From Vulcaniibacterium tengchongense (GTDB lineage: Bacteria; Pseudomonadota; Gammaproteobacteria; Xanthomonadales; Xanthomonadaceae), in assembly GCF_003814555.1 (NCBI RefSeq), contig NZ_RKQN01000002.1, positions 806,001 through 870,000 of the forward strand: 64,000 nt of DNA, read 5' to 3'. This document shows positions 38,611-43,049 of the stretch, in pieces (position 1 is the first letter of the stretch; each line of letters begins with the position of its first letter). The notes under the pieces are model-generated. The model saw nothing but the letters and a program-made list of their open reading frames with translations. It was not told the origin of the DNA and searched no databases. Both the position numbers and the translations under genes were made by a program.

Positions 38611-40182
38611 ATGGTTTTTCGCCTATCGGTGGCGCTGCTGGGCGCCCTAGTGCTGGCGGGCGTGCTGGCGCCGGATGCGTTCGGCCACTGGAGCGGGCGT
38701 CTGCAGGCTTCGACCCTGGCCGGAGCCGGCTGGCTGTACCTGGTGATCGTGTTCGCGGCCCTGGTGTTCCTGGGCGCCCTGGCCTTCGGCCGCACCGGCG
38801 CGCTGCGCATCGGCGGCGACGATGCGGAGCCGCAGTTCTCGCGCGGCTCGTGGTTCGCGATGCTGTTCTCCGCGGGCATGGGCATCGGCCTGGTGTTCTG
38901 GGGCGCGGCCGAGCCGCTGTCGCACTACCACACGCCACCGGAAGGGCTGGCGCCGGACAGCTTCTCCGCGGCGCGCGCGGCGATGCGCTACACGTTCTTC
39001 CACTGGGGCCTGCACCCGTGGGCGGTGTACGGGCTGATCGGCCTGGCGATGGCGTGGTTCCAGTACAACCGCCATTCGCGCGGCCTGATCAGCGACCTGC
39101 TCTCGCCGCTGATCGGCCGCCACGCGCACGGCGCGTTCGGCCACCTGGTGGACGTGCTGGCGGTGGTGGCCACCGCGATCGGCGTGGCCACCACGCTGGG
39201 CTTCGGCGCGGCGCAGATCGGCGCCGGGCTCGGCCATGTCGCCGGCGTGCCGAGCGGCCTGGCCACGCAGCTGGCGGTGATCGCGGTGGCGTTCGTGCTG
39301 TACATGCTGTCGACGCTGTCCGGGCTGGACCGCGGCATCAAGTGGCTGTCGAACTTCAACCTCGGGGTGGCCTTGCTGCTGTTGGCGCTGGTCGTGGCGC
39401 TGGGGCCGACCGCGTTCGTGTTCGAGACGCTGACCACCACGCTGGGCGGCTACCTCAACGAGCTGCCGGCGATGAGCCTGCGCATGTCGCCGTTCTCGCA
39501 GAGCGCCTGGGTCGGCGAGTGGACGATCTTCTACTGGGCCTGGTGGATCGCCTGGGCGCCGTTCGTCGGCGCGTTCTTCGCGCGCATCTCCTACGGGCGC
39601 ACGGTGCGCGAGTTCGTGCTCGGCGTGGTGTGCGGCCCGGCGCTGGTCAGCTTCCTGTGGTTCTCCGGCTTCGGCGGCAGCGCGCTGTTCCAGCAGATCA
39701 TCGGCCACCACGACCTGCTGCCGGTGCTGGAGCGCGGCTACGAGTACGTGCTGTTCGCGGTGCTGGAGCCGCTGCCGTTCGCGCCGGCGCTGGCGTGGCT
39801 GGCGATCGTGCTGCTGCTGAGCTTCTTCGTGACCTCGGCCGATTCGGCGACGCTGACCCTGGCCAGCATGTCCAGCCCGACCGCGGCGGATCCGCCGCTG
39901 CGCCGCAAGCTGGTCTGGGGCGTGCTGCAGGCCGGCATCGCGGTCGCGCTGCTCGGCGCCGGCGGGCTGGACGCGTTGCAGGCGGTGGTGATCGTGGCCG
40001 CGTTGCCGTTCGCGCTGCTGCTGGCGGCGGTGATGCCGGCGCTATACCGGGTGCTGGCGCAGGACCTGGCCGAACACGACCGCCTCGCGCGCGAACTGCA
40101 CCGCGCCGAGCTGCGCTGGCTGGCGCAGGAGCGCGACCGCGGCGCGCCGCGGCCGGAAGGCGAGGGCGGCCCATCGCGCTAG
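38611..40182 (+). CDS. BCCT-family betaine/choline/carnitine transporter
   Basis: The 523-residue protein has the 12-helix BCCT fold. The family signature 'EWTIFYWAWWIAWAPFVG' lies at about residues 302-319, and the N-terminal 'FAMLFSAGMGIGLVFWGAAEPLSHY' glycine-rich segment carries the substrate-site features. Members import betaine, choline or carnitine with sodium or protons, usually for osmoprotection. The C-terminal tail of about 35 residues is charged ('EHDRLARELHRAELRWLAQE'), shorter than in the osmosensing BetP. The ribosome-binding site is strong. Substrate preference cannot be decided by eye. Confidence 0.93.
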   Translation: MVFRLSVALLGALVLAGVLAPDAFGHWSGRLQASTLAGAGWLYLVIVFAALVFLGALAFGRTGALRIGGDDAEPQFSRGSWFAMLFSAGMGIGLVFWGAAEPLSHYHTPPEGLAPDSFSAARAAMRYTFFHWGLHPWAVYGLIGLAMAWFQYNRHSRGLISDLLSPLIGRHAHGAFGHLVDVLAVVATAIGVATTLGFGAAQIGAGLGHVAGVPSGLATQLAVIAVAFVLYMLSTLSGLDRGIKWLSNFNLGVALLLLALVVALGPTAFVFETLTTTLGGYLNELPAMSLRMSPFSQSAWVGEWTIFYWAWWIAWAPFVGAFFARISYGRTVREFVLGVVCGPALVSFLWFSGFGGSALFQQIIGHHDLLPVLERGYEYVLFAVLEPLPFAPALAWLAIVLLLSFFVTSADSATLTLASMSSPTAADPPLRRKLVWGVLQAGIAVALLGAGGLDALQAVVIVAALPFALLLAAVMPALYRVLAQDLAEHDRLARELHRAELRWLAQERDRGAPRPEGEGGPSR

Positions 40183-40697
40183 TTTGAGGTTCCGAAAGGT
40201 CGTTCCCTCTGCCCGGAGCGGATGTCGCCGAACAGACGCTCCACTCCGCGAGGGAACCACCATGTACAGGATGCGTGCTTGATCGGGAGGAGCCGAGAGG
40301 CGTTGATCGAGCTCCCGGTCCGGCCAGCCCCACCCTCTTGATCTTTCGTGGCAACGATATGGCTGCCCGGGAACCTGTTGGCCTCGCAGGTACCCTGAGG
40401 ACGGCAAGCAGAGCATGGAGACGCCTGCGCGCCAGGCCCGAAGACGCACGCAAGCGGTACGAGCGGTACCCAAGGAACCGTGGAAGTCCGGATGCTATGC
40501 GGCTGCGTGCGTGCAAAAGCCGCCGCCTCTGTTGGGCCAGGACATCGCCGGGTGGGTCACGACCCAGCAAGTGTCCGACGATGCCGAGTTGGCGGAGTTC
40601 GACACCCTCGGCAAGGTGCCTCCGCCCGCTCGAGACCCCCGGGAACCTGCGAACGCGCCCCCGGCATCCTTCCCGTCGCCGCGACGCACTTCGACCG
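40183..40697. other. Non-coding stretch upstream of the type VI remnant, with a nested hairpin
   Basis: I see no recognisable gene here. The sequence is less GC-rich and less ordered in codon pattern than its surroundings. A nested inverted repeat lies at 40202-40257: GTTCCCTC/GAGGGAAC as outer 8-bp arms, and GGAGCG (40215-40220)/CGCTCC (40237-40242) inside. It may be a terminator for the BCCT gene without a T-tract, or the edge of an inserted segment. The open frames across this stretch have no family resemblance and look like decayed or random sequence. Confidence 0.5.
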
Positions 40698-41189
40698 ATG
40701 AGGGCCTGTCGGCCGCTGGCTTGGCTAGCTGGCCGCGCTCGTTTGCTGTGGGCGAAGATCGGCGTCAGCGACGCCTGGCTGGGCATCGCCGAGGGGATGA
40801 GCGGTTACGAACGGATCGACGTGGAGATCCGCATCGTCGGGTTCGACCGGGCGCGCAGCGCGTACGAGTGGCGGCTGTACGCGCGGCACGAGAAGCGTGG
40901 CGAAATCGCGGCGACGGCCGGGCGCCACGGCATGCCGGCGCCGCCGATGTACGTCCAGGCGGCGCCCAACCGAGGTATTTTCGGTGGGCTCACGCGGGAC
41001 GAATCAGAAGACTGGTTTCGCGGGTTCGATAAGGGTACCGAGACCTACGAGGACGGTGCGTGGGTGATCCGGGATTCGGTGGAAGTGCAGCGGAGCAGGT
41101 TCCAGCGTGCGCGGCTGCGGCTGGACTACTGGCCGGACTATGCCGACCGCAGCGCGCGCGCGAGCGTGGAACTGAGAGACGAAGACTGA
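40698..41189 (+). CDS. Uncharacterised protein next to DUF6708 gene, possibly truncated at N-terminus
   Basis: I do not recognise a named family. The product of up to 163 residues has a basic N-terminal stretch with 'LAWLAGRARLLW', then a soluble domain: 'GYERIDVEIRIVGFDRARS', 'YEWRLYARHEKRGEIAATAG', 'QAAPNRGIFGGLTRDESEDW' and 'RARLRLDYWPDYADRSARAS'. It is 2 bp upstream of a DUF6708 gene, which is followed by a PAAR gene remnant, so a type VI secretion accessory role is inferred from context only. The start is uncertain: 40698 and 40797 are both possible and neither has a well-spaced ribosome-binding site. A lost N-terminal membrane segment is possible. Confidence 0.5.
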   Translation: MRACRPLAWLAGRARLLWAKIGVSDAWLGIAEGMSGYERIDVEIRIVGFDRARSAYEWRLYARHEKRGEIAATAGRHGMPAPPMYVQAAPNRGIFGGLTRDESEDWFRGFDKGTETYEDGAWVIRDSVEVQRSRFQRARLRLDYWPDYADRSARASVELRDED

Positions 41190-41191
41190 CC

Positions 41192-42169
41192 ATGGCGAAA
41201 GGCGAGTCGAAGCGGGTGCCCGAGCATCCGCACTGGTACGAGGACCTTCCGGAGCGGGATGCGCCGCTGGATCGCGCGCCGAAGATGGTGCATGGCGATG
41301 TCAATGCGATGGATGCGGTTTGCCTGGAAGTTTCCCGGGCATCGACGCTGATGCGGGGATTGTGTGTTGTTGCCGGGCTTTTAGCCCTCGTTGCTGCTGG
41401 TGTGAGTGTGGTCTTTTTGGGGCTCGTCCTGTCGGATCCAGATGTTACGGGCGATGAATTTGTCGTTCTTCTGCTCGGTTTTCTATTAACGATCACCACT
41501 TCGGTTTGGCTTGGCGGTTGGGCCTTCAAGACAGACTTTACGGTCCCTCGTGATCGCCCCGTCCGCCTCAACCGCACTCAACGCAAGGTCTACGTCTACG
41601 AGCATGCCTACGGCATGAACCCGTTCAAGAAATGGCCGACCACCATCAAGGTGTTCGACTGGGACACCCTGCAGGCCGAATTGCACCGGCAGGCGGGCTT
41701 CAACGGCAAGGCGTACATCCAACGCTTCTCGCTGTGGCTGGTGAGCTGCAAGCCGGGCACGAACGAGGTGGTGGACCGGTTCGAATTGAAGGGCAATCAC
41801 CCGACTACGGCCGAGTTGTACAACATGTGGGCGTACTGCCGGACGTACATGGAACATGGACCAGAAGGGTTGCCGACGTATCCGCCGCGACGGCAGGAGA
41901 TCACGTTCCGACGTAGCTTGTTCGAGCATATCCGCTTCCTGGACCCCACCGAGGAAGGGCGGGAGGTGCGTGCGCGCATGACCGTATGGGACTGGGTCAT
42001 CAATCTTCCGATTTTCCTGGCGGGGTTCTGGCTGATGATTCCGGCGGGCATCGGCCACTACATCGCGATGCGCTTCGCACCGGAAGTGAAATGGCCGCCG
42101 GAGATCGACGCCGAATCGCGCCGCGGTCCCTCGCACCCGGCGGAGGCTGCATCCGCCGCGGGAGGTTGA
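41192..42169 (+). CDS. DUF6708-type membrane protein, type VI secretion-associated
   Basis: This 325-residue protein has two central hydrophobic helices, about residues 55-78 ('LCVVAGLLALVAAGVSVVFL') and 90-112. A cytoplasmic domain with 'RPVRLNRTQRKVYVYEHA', 'IKVFDWDTLQAELHRQ' and 'NHPTTAELYNMWAYCRTYME' follows, and another hydrophobic segment near the C-terminus ('WVINLPIFLAGFWLMIPAGI'). The R-x-NR-x-RKVYV and DWD features are those of DUF6708 proteins encoded beside PAAR/VgrG genes. The sequence around 41310-41560 is visibly AT-richer than the window average, suggesting horizontal transfer. The PAAR gene starts 1 nt after its stop. Confidence 0.7.
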   Translation: MAKGESKRVPEHPHWYEDLPERDAPLDRAPKMVHGDVNAMDAVCLEVSRASTLMRGLCVVAGLLALVAAGVSVVFLGLVLSDPDVTGDEFVVLLLGFLLTITTSVWLGGWAFKTDFTVPRDRPVRLNRTQRKVYVYEHAYGMNPFKKWPTTIKVFDWDTLQAELHRQAGFNGKAYIQRFSLWLVSCKPGTNEVVDRFELKGNHPTTAELYNMWAYCRTYMEHGPEGLPTYPPRRQEITFRRSLFEHIRFLDPTEEGREVRARMTVWDWVINLPIFLAGFWLMIPAGIGHYIAMRFAPEVKWPPEIDAESRRGPSHPAEAASAAGG

Positions 42170-42170
42170 A

Positions 42171-42344
42171 ATGGCGAAGCCTTTCATTGTCGTCGGCGAC
42201 AAGACCGAGCACGGCGGCACGGTGCTGACCGGTTCGCCGGAGACCGGCATCCGCGGCCAGGCGGTCGCCCGGTGCACGACGAGGTGCAGCGGAACGGATG
42301 CGCCGGCGTAGCCCGTCGCGGCCGGCGATCCCTTGCGCATCGGC
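42171..42344 (+). pseudogene. PAAR-domain type VI spike protein, broken by frameshifts
   Basis: A good ribosome-binding site (GGGAGG, then 5 nt) precedes the ATG. The first 34 codons are a typical PAAR N-terminus ('MAKPFIVVGDKTEHGGTVLT', then 'GSPETGIRGQAVAR'). The frame then enters 'CTTRCSGTDAPA' and stops at 42309. Reading one base later from 42272 restores 'VHDEV', as expected after VAR in PAAR proteins. A further shift near 42311-42316 is needed to reach 'VAAGDPLRIG', like the second PAAR half. Each shift is consistent with loss of one G in a CGGG context. Intact PAAR proteins cap the VgrG spike; this copy cannot make a whole domain. Confidence 0.75.
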
Positions 42345-42515
42345 GCGGAGACGGACAGCGCGGGATCCGCGGTGCCTGCGTGCCCGCTTCGGCCCGGGTC
42401 GGGCAGGCGTCCTGGGACGGCGGCGGGCGACGCCGCTGCCGCGGCGGGGCCGGATGCCGGCCGCCGCCGTGGCGCGTCCGTGCCGGTCCGCGGCACGGGG
42501 ACGAGGGCGCGCGGC

Positions 42516-43049
42516 TCAGCCCCGCGGTGCCGCGGCCGCGTCCAGCGCGTACAGGTGCAGCGCTTCGCCCGCCTCGTTGACGAAGGTGCGCTCGAAACGC
42601 AGGCCGAGGTGTTCGAGCACCCGGATCGACGCGGCGTTGTCCGGCGCGACGATCGCCAGCAGGCGCGGCAGCTTCAATGCGCCCAACGCATGGTCTCGCA
42701 CCGCGGCGCAGGCCTCGCGCGCGTACCCGCGCGACCAGTGCCGCGGCAGGAAGGCGTAGCCGATGTCGGGCGCGGGCAGGCTGTCGCGCTGGAGCAACCC
42801 GCACAGCCCGAGCGCCTCGCCGCTCGCGCGCGCCTGCACCATCCACAGGCCGAAGCCGTGCTGCGCGTAGCTGGCGCGCGGGCCGTTGCGGATGTAGTCG
42901 CGCGCGCTGTCCAGGTCGCGCACGCCGCGGTCGCCGATGTGCCGCAGGAACGACGGATCGGTCAGCAGTTCCAGCACGAACGCCGAGTCGCGCCGTTCGT
43001 CCAGTTCGCGCAGGCGCAGGCGGTCGGTGGCGAGGACGTCGCGGGACAT
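42516..43049 (-). CDS. GNAT-family N-acetyltransferase (RimJ/RimL type)
   Basis: The 177-residue product begins 'VLATDRLRLRELDERRDSAFV', the classic N-terminus of RimJ/RimL-like acetyltransferases. It continues with 'DIGYAFLPRHWSRGYAREAC', where 'HWSRGYA' is the acetyl-CoA loop, and 'LLAIVAPDNAASIRVLEHLG'. Members acetylate ribosomal proteins, antibiotics or other amines; the substrate here is unknown. It starts 8 nt after the SIMPL-domain gene stop and likely shares its transcript. It converges with the PAAR remnant, leaving about 170 bp of decayed DNA between them. Confidence 0.88.
   Translation of the reverse strand: MSRDVLATDRLRLRELDERRDSAFVLELLTDPSFLRHIGDRGVRDLDSARDYIRNGPRASYAQHGFGLWMVQARASGEALGLCGLLQRDSLPAPDIGYAFLPRHWSRGYAREACAAVRDHALGALKLPRLLAIVAPDNAASIRVLEHLGLRFERTFVNEAGEALHLYALDAAAAPRG

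Follow-up and report, generated by a model that had tools for sequence, protein, structure and literature searches.

The window, a stretch of 64,000 nucleotides of DNA from Vulcaniibacterium tengchongense, carries on its plus strand three genes that run in the same direction: a short open reading frame (ORF1), a gene for a DUF6708 membrane protein, and a PAAR gene (Table 1). The gaps between them are 2 and 1 bp, as described in an earlier note on this DNA. The AT-richer stretch which that note placed at about 41310-41560 is also real. Measured in 500-base windows, the GC content is 0.58-0.63 over 41000-42249, versus 0.67-0.73 in the flanking windows on either side and 0.70-0.82 in much of the surrounding 11 kb, and the AT-rich stretch coincides with the codons of the first transmembrane (TM) hairpin of the DUF6708 protein. 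As an observation of the locus, the note was right about the anatomy, the DUF6708 assignment, the loss of the PAAR frame and the AT-rich stretch; its tracing of the PAAR damage to just two single-base losses was not confirmed.

Table 1. Features of the locus, with positions in the window
Feature	Position	Strand	Remarks
Junction	40728..40768	+	Resembles the sequence 3' of the PAAR stop codon in the intact C4 module and leads into the start of the effector piece
ORF1, C-terminal effector remnant	40698..41189	+	DNA homology from about 40752
DUF6708 membrane protein, intact, predicted immunity	41192..42169	+	PF20455, E 2.3e-75; context in relatives; model pLDDT 84
Hypervariable TM hairpin, codons 51-112	41342..41527	+	AT-rich core; proposed specificity cassette
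Second variable stretch, codons 248-292	41933..42067	+	Around the third predicted TM helix; nearly the same allele on C7
PAAR gene, 5' part	42171..42311	+	46 open codons, then stop; PF05488, 30.5 bits
PAAR continuation, decayed	42312..42420	+	Similarity at chance level

About 540 bp (40187-40727) separate a BCCT transporter gene from the orphan unit; their GC content is somewhat below that of the BCCT gene, and they contain nothing recognisable. A tblastn search of 40150-40760 for remnants of an effector N-terminus returned chance-level matches only (best E 0.28), and a search of a plasmid collection with the locus gave no match. An empty site was sought via the acetyltransferase gene downstream of the locus, which matched in 25 of 60 genomes, including its own. 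The BCCT transporter was absent from all 24 other acetyltransferase loci, with about 1.5 kb covered on each side.

ORF1 had been taken for an adaptor, an immunity protein or an accessory protein. Instead, a search of its own genome showed that residues 17-163 of its product (P0001) are 84% identical to the end of a 1109-aa protein encoded on contig C4, with a second match to a fragment on contig C7 (72%, residues 20-81). The 1109-aa protein is an effector of the BTH_I2691 family (NF041559, 468 bits versus a cut-off of 150) with a VasX_N region at its N-terminus (E 1.4e-32), and its sole match in the PDB is 9r8g (996 aa, named VasX N-terminal protein; E 8.8e-06, residues 28-226), which we take to be Tke5 on account of its length and name. 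At the start of the effector piece, the junction has 86% similarity over 43 bp to L013 5442-5400 (blastn), and the same order, PAAR followed by an effector piece, was seen on contig C7. Judged from these matches, ORF1 is the C-terminal piece of a pore-forming effector of the BTH_I2691/VasX type, exported by the type VI secretion system (T6SS). P0001 itself had no NCBIfam match; in the intact paralog, NF041559 spans residues 36-960, and P0001 corresponds to the part after it. P0001 is a remnant and not a member of the BTH_I2691 family. The structure model of the ORF1 product, of moderate confidence (pLDDT 69), is strand-rich and resembles a beta-sandwich. Its best VIA-align Z was 7.0, with many tied rows, mostly Ig-like, and Foldseek returned no match at E <= 0.001. 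Neither P0001 (E up to 1) nor P0002 (E up to 0.1) had a match in the PDB by sequence.

The DUF6708 gene, on the other hand, is an intact frame of 325 codons that matches PF20455 with 253.2 bits (cut-off 27). Its product is 78% identical to the DUF6708 protein that adjoins the intact C4 effector. A homologue therefore occupies the immunity position beside an intact effector, and an intact effector is missing at the window locus itself. The model of the DUF6708 protein had no PDB match at E <= 0.001. Among 30 loci outside this genome, an effector or pieces of one were found beside DUF6708 at 26, and PAAR of this type at two, about 2 kb away, as counted with a profile built from the copies of this genome, which may miss others. 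The effector is thus a more constant neighbour of DUF6708 than PAAR is outside this genome. At least two DUF6708 genes were present at 16 of the 30 loci (e.g. in Luteimonas, Herbaspirillum, enterobacteria and Gilliamella). Most of the 30 loci were found via DUF6708 itself. In the converse search, by effector, 6 of 35 Gilliamella genomes matched (one being the query itself), and in all six a DUF6708-type gene lies directly downstream of the effector. E. coli genomes searched with the immunity region of Citrobacter gillenii gave no match. We also observed that the Gilliamella genome of locus L077 (G200) has nine VasX_N matches on eight contigs.

In the family to which the window genome belongs, DUF6708 is present in 19 of 198 genomes, its own included. 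The family sample comprises 18 regions, of which two belong to a single array, and makes up 17 of the 26 tabulated outside loci, mostly the better-scoring ones. The effector or its pieces were found at 13 of these 17 loci and were absent from four (L046, L047, L048 and L061). At each of the four, a lone DUF6708 gene has no effector piece within about 9 kb on either side, and these genes may be lone orphans or may have another role; L047, taken to be the same locus as L064, is apparently from Lysobacter sp. Root690. A scan of named genomes yielded 16 loci, three of which were taken as repeats (L062, L063 and L064), and all 13 new loci carry the effector or pieces of it.

The available text of one report lists a DUF6708 protein of Stenotrophomonas rhizophila, followed by 12 homologous genes, as the immunity protein for a BTH_I2691 effector (PMC13340143). 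Both the genomic context and this listing suggest that the DUF6708 protein of the window is probably the immunity protein of a BTH_I2691-type effector. The earlier reading of a decayed cargo locus, with ORF1 as adaptor, immunity or accessory protein and DUF6708 as cargo, agrees with the gene order and the proximity of PAAR but has next to no chance of being right, since its ORF1 part is already contradicted by the match to the end of the 1109-aa effector and DUF6708 lies directly downstream of intact effectors and is in print as an immunity protein. What remains of that interpretation is that the locus is T6SS-related, partly decayed and foreign-looking in composition, with DUF6708 beside PAAR; the roles given to the genes change, DUF6708 being most likely the immunity protein.

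The genome contains four DUF6708 loci, and a PAAR match adjoins DUF6708 in each of them. The linkage of DUF6708 to PAAR mentioned in the earlier note holds for all four copies of this genome; measured by the condition that the note itself set, loci without an adjoining PAAR of this type exist outside it. The single TssC match of the genome is on contig C4, where the intact module has the order VgrG, an unrecognised 315-aa protein, effector, DUF6708 and PAAR, and is adjoined by a ClpV-like ATPase and TssG. Also near TssC on C4 (L016 8950-14940), a second VgrG of 1202 aa is followed by a LysM protein and is perhaps part of another effector module. The other three DUF6708 modules lack an intact effector and are scattered: two, separated by about 236 kb, are on contig C2, and the third is on contig C7. 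In the second C2 copy, DUF6708 and PAAR are accompanied by an effector 3' end reduced to about 60 bp. The C7 copy consists, in this order, of the 3' part of DUF6708, an intact PAAR gene and a 5' piece of the effector C-terminal domain, and it shares most of the second variable stretch with the window copy (30 of 32 residues). Because the window unit starts with sequence found 3' of the PAAR stop codon on C4, the C7 and window copies appear to be different sections cut from a tandem array of one unit. Type I restriction-modification genes (N6_Mtase and Methylase_S) are found some 3 kb from the C7 copy (L014 1237-4097).

The PAAR gene of the window loses its frame after codon 34, as the earlier note described, and 33 of the 70 positions of the PAAR domain (PF05488) precede the frame loss, so that no single open frame contains the complete domain. 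A stretch of 45 residues matches positions 1-33 of the profile above the cut-off of 27 bits; reading across the stop in the genome search extended the match to positions 1-45, with one TAG inside. The proposal that just two single bases were lost is not confirmed: clear DNA similarity to the paralogs stops at 42289, and what follows is no closer to them than chance. While 47 of 50 positions are identical to the paralogs at 42178-42227, only 26 and 28 of 48 are identical at 42277-42324. When the part after 42277 was compared with the three intact PAAR genes found elsewhere in the genome, it scored no better than shuffled sequence: of 300 shuffles, 55, 49 and 31 matched or surpassed the real score. 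The sequence past the breaks is unlike that of a PAAR gene that is otherwise sound. That the breaks are sequencing errors in an intact gene is suggested by the closeness of the frame changes and the GC-rich region; this is nevertheless very improbable, as a few base errors would not bring the similarity to three intact paralogs down to chance.

We consider it highly probable that the window locus is an orphan immunity cassette derived from a T6SS effector-immunity-PAAR module, whose DUF6708 protein blocks the matching effector of a neighbour and whose hairpin reads a segment of the pore. The effector is reduced to its C-terminal piece and the PAAR tip gene is broken, with the DUF6708 immunity gene left intact. 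The DUF6708 protein would probably reside in the inner membrane and block a matching effector arriving from a neighbouring cell, and the TM hairpin of the immunity protein would read a segment of the pore region of the effector by direct contact. The window copy of DUF6708 would then be expressed and protect the cell. As to its kind, the locus is a further orphan immunity gene of an already described sort: the available text on Vibrio cholerae reports immunity genes that were retained after the loss of the effector (PMC5361080).

A less likely explanation is that the whole locus is a dead relic, in which the DUF6708 frame is open only because of recent copying or gene conversion and protects against nothing. 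The broken effector and PAAR genes are consistent with a relic. In the C7 sister copy, half of the DUF6708 gene is lost and the match carries two stops, and a search of 40180-42520 for a sigma-70-like promoter found none. Two observations argue against it. All 325 codons of the window gene are open despite a hairpin that differs strongly from those of the paralogs. Furthermore, the last 253 bp of V. cholerae vasX are described, in the part of the report available, as carrying the promoter for the immunity gene (PMC3857813), and about 435 bp of the effector 3' end are retained in the window. By analogy, this 3' end may have been kept as the carrier of the immunity-gene promoter.

We compared the DUF6708 genes of the window, of C4 and of the second C2 copy. 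The DNA identity among the three paralogs is 100% in codons 1-25, 96-100% in codons 126-200 and 93-99% in codons 301-325. The variable columns are 51-125 (43-75%) and 251-275 (55-64%), with 201-250 intermediate for some pairs. Differences at fourfold sites were found at 14/29 sites in the variable blocks versus 16/100 in the rest, at 10/23 versus 15/103, and at 15/26 versus 15/103 (Fisher p 7.8e-4, 3.6e-3 and 1.8e-5; the comparisons are not independent). For this test and for the hairpin GC3 test described below, the block borders were picked after the identity, Mangrovibacter and composition results had been seen. Change at silent sites in a block means that the history of the block differs from that of its flanks, by recombination or by gene conversion of the flanks. 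In the predicted structure, the first variable block corresponds to the first TM hairpin (helices 57-80 and 88-117). The three hairpins have a fourfold-site GC content of 0.59, 0.56 and 0.56, and the rest of the same genes has 0.83-0.86; for the window copy, the counts are 26/44 in the hairpin versus 111/134 in the rest (p 0.0019).

In the arrays of genome G096 (presumably Luteimonas endophytica), of the relative G001, of Gilliamella and of Mangrovibacter, no long stretch, or hardly any, varies more than this hairpin. Among copies 1-4 of Mangrovibacter yixingensis, the flanks are nearly identical and the hairpins have 39-55% identity, with an excess of silent-site change in the hairpin in all six pairs (p 0.005 or less); copy 5 of this locus (L071) did not show the excess. 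In three of the five array sets (L051, L077 and L049), the silent sites of the flanks have diverged too, and a hairpin excess at p < 0.05 was found in 2 of 23 pairs. For 30 effector-immunity pairs (25 once a duplicated locus is counted once), with the effectors found by profile search, the 40-residue window of lowest identity in the immunity protein was the hairpin in all but one, by reading of the segments. The GC3 of the immunity hairpin was lower in 17 of 21 genes, after 15 of 36 immunity genes that could not be mapped had been left out.

Matching variation was found in the effectors. The effectors of M. yixingensis (L071) and Mangrovibacter plantisponsor (L075) are 87% identical over 608 aligned columns. 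In 60-column windows, their lowest identity is 0.40, the next non-overlapping window has 0.80 and the median is 0.92, and the low window is in the pore region, at about residues 770-830. For the compared part, the cognate immunity proteins of the two effectors are identical at 148 of 152 positions outside the hairpin and at 17 of 47 inside it. The hairpin of the M. plantisponsor cognate immunity protein recurs (49/49) in the second immunity gene of M. yixingensis. The assembly has the effector gene of M. plantisponsor as two separate reading frames (L075 2785-5863). The effectors of Lelliottia (L072) and Enterobacteriaceae RIT691 (L068) have an identity of 0.87 with the lowest window in the corresponding block, and the minimum of their immunity proteins (0.25) is in the hairpin. 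Gilliamella repeats the pattern in part: in a set of six genomes, the lowest 25-column window of the pore region was in the block in 8 of 15 pairs. Of the five effector pairs with an identity of at least 0.85, three had their lowest window in the pore block and two had it within or beside the C-terminal domain; in more distant pairs, it was mostly elsewhere in the effector.

The pore block also resembles the hairpin in base composition. In the C4 effector, the fourfold GC is 0.42-0.67 in 50-codon windows within residues 826-950 and 0.74-1.00 in the others. We measured 21 of 36 effector ORFs (37 before a duplicated locus was removed), the other 15, including six from Gilliamella, having been dropped as cut off, short or unmappable on the C4 block. 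The fourfold GC of the pore block was below that of the preceding 75 residues in 18 of the 21 effectors, and below that of the most hydrophobic upstream stretch and of more distant parts in all 21. Since the loci are related, the tests are not independent trials.

We lean slightly towards the view that the pore block of the toxin (about 60-90 residues) and the TM hairpin of the immunity protein (about 50-60 residues) are paired, exchangeable specificity cassettes that are swapped by recombination while the rest of each gene stays conserved, and that orphan immunity genes, that of the window included, would be a reserve of keys to the toxin alleles that other strains carry. An internal promoter, relaxed constraint on hydrophobic helices or a codon choice that suits membrane insertion might also make the hairpin and the pore block variable and AT-rich, a possible though doubtful explanation. 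Hydrophobic segments tolerate change, the vasX 3' end mentioned above provides an example of an internal promoter (PMC3857813), and the flank silent sites diverged as well in the three array sets. On the other hand, silent changes are few in the flanks and many in the hairpin in two sets. The most hydrophobic upstream stretch of the same effectors has a higher fourfold GC than the block (21/21), and the polytopic BCCT gene next to the locus has a fourfold GC of 0.97. In addition, both partners of the Mangrovibacter pair differ chiefly in the block and the hairpin. Hypervariable or recombining TM segments of T6SS immunity proteins are unreported in the open-access titles and abstracts searched, a scope outside which most subscription papers and all bioRxiv preprints fall.

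How membrane immunity proteins recognise pore-forming T6SS toxins has, for Tke5, been narrowed only to the whole helical region in the text available to us (PMC12909789), in which Tki5 neutralises the helical toxic region of Tke5 even when the C-terminal domain is missing. Should the hairpin and the pore block be the matching parts, recognition would come down to two short segments, and the sequence of a strain would allow its immunity range to be predicted. The proposal also offers a role for DUF6708, which is still of unknown function in Pfam.

Several known systems resemble the locus in part, as described in the available portions of the T6SS reports cited here. In Pseudomonas putida, the operon order is vgrG3-tap3-tke5-tki5-tsp5, with effector, immunity and, last, PAAR (PMC12909789). 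The C4 module has the order of Tke5-Tki5-Tsp5 after vgrG, and its effector is like Tke5 in belonging to the BTH_I2691 family with a MIX domain, a helical pore region and a predicted beta-rich C-terminal domain; unlike the Tke5 operon, the window copy lacks the N-terminal and pore regions and an intact PAAR gene. Tse3-Tsi3a of S. rhizophila (PMC13340143) likewise combines a DUF6708 immunity protein of a BTH_I2691 effector with multiple homologous immunity genes, but these form a 14-kb array beside the effector, whereas the copies described here are scattered orphans. Staphylococcus aureus TspA and its DUF443 proteins (PMC7456083) also combine a membrane-depolarising toxin and, in a repeat region, polytopic membrane proteins of which one was shown to give immunity, although they belong to type VII secretion and to other families. 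The orphan immunity arrays of V. cholerae (PMC5361080) share with the window locus the loss of the effector, the retention of the immunity gene, recombination and mosaic clusters. In V. cholerae, effector-immunity modules are described as being displaced and recombined, whereas here the exchanged unit would be the TM hairpin segment inside the immunity gene.
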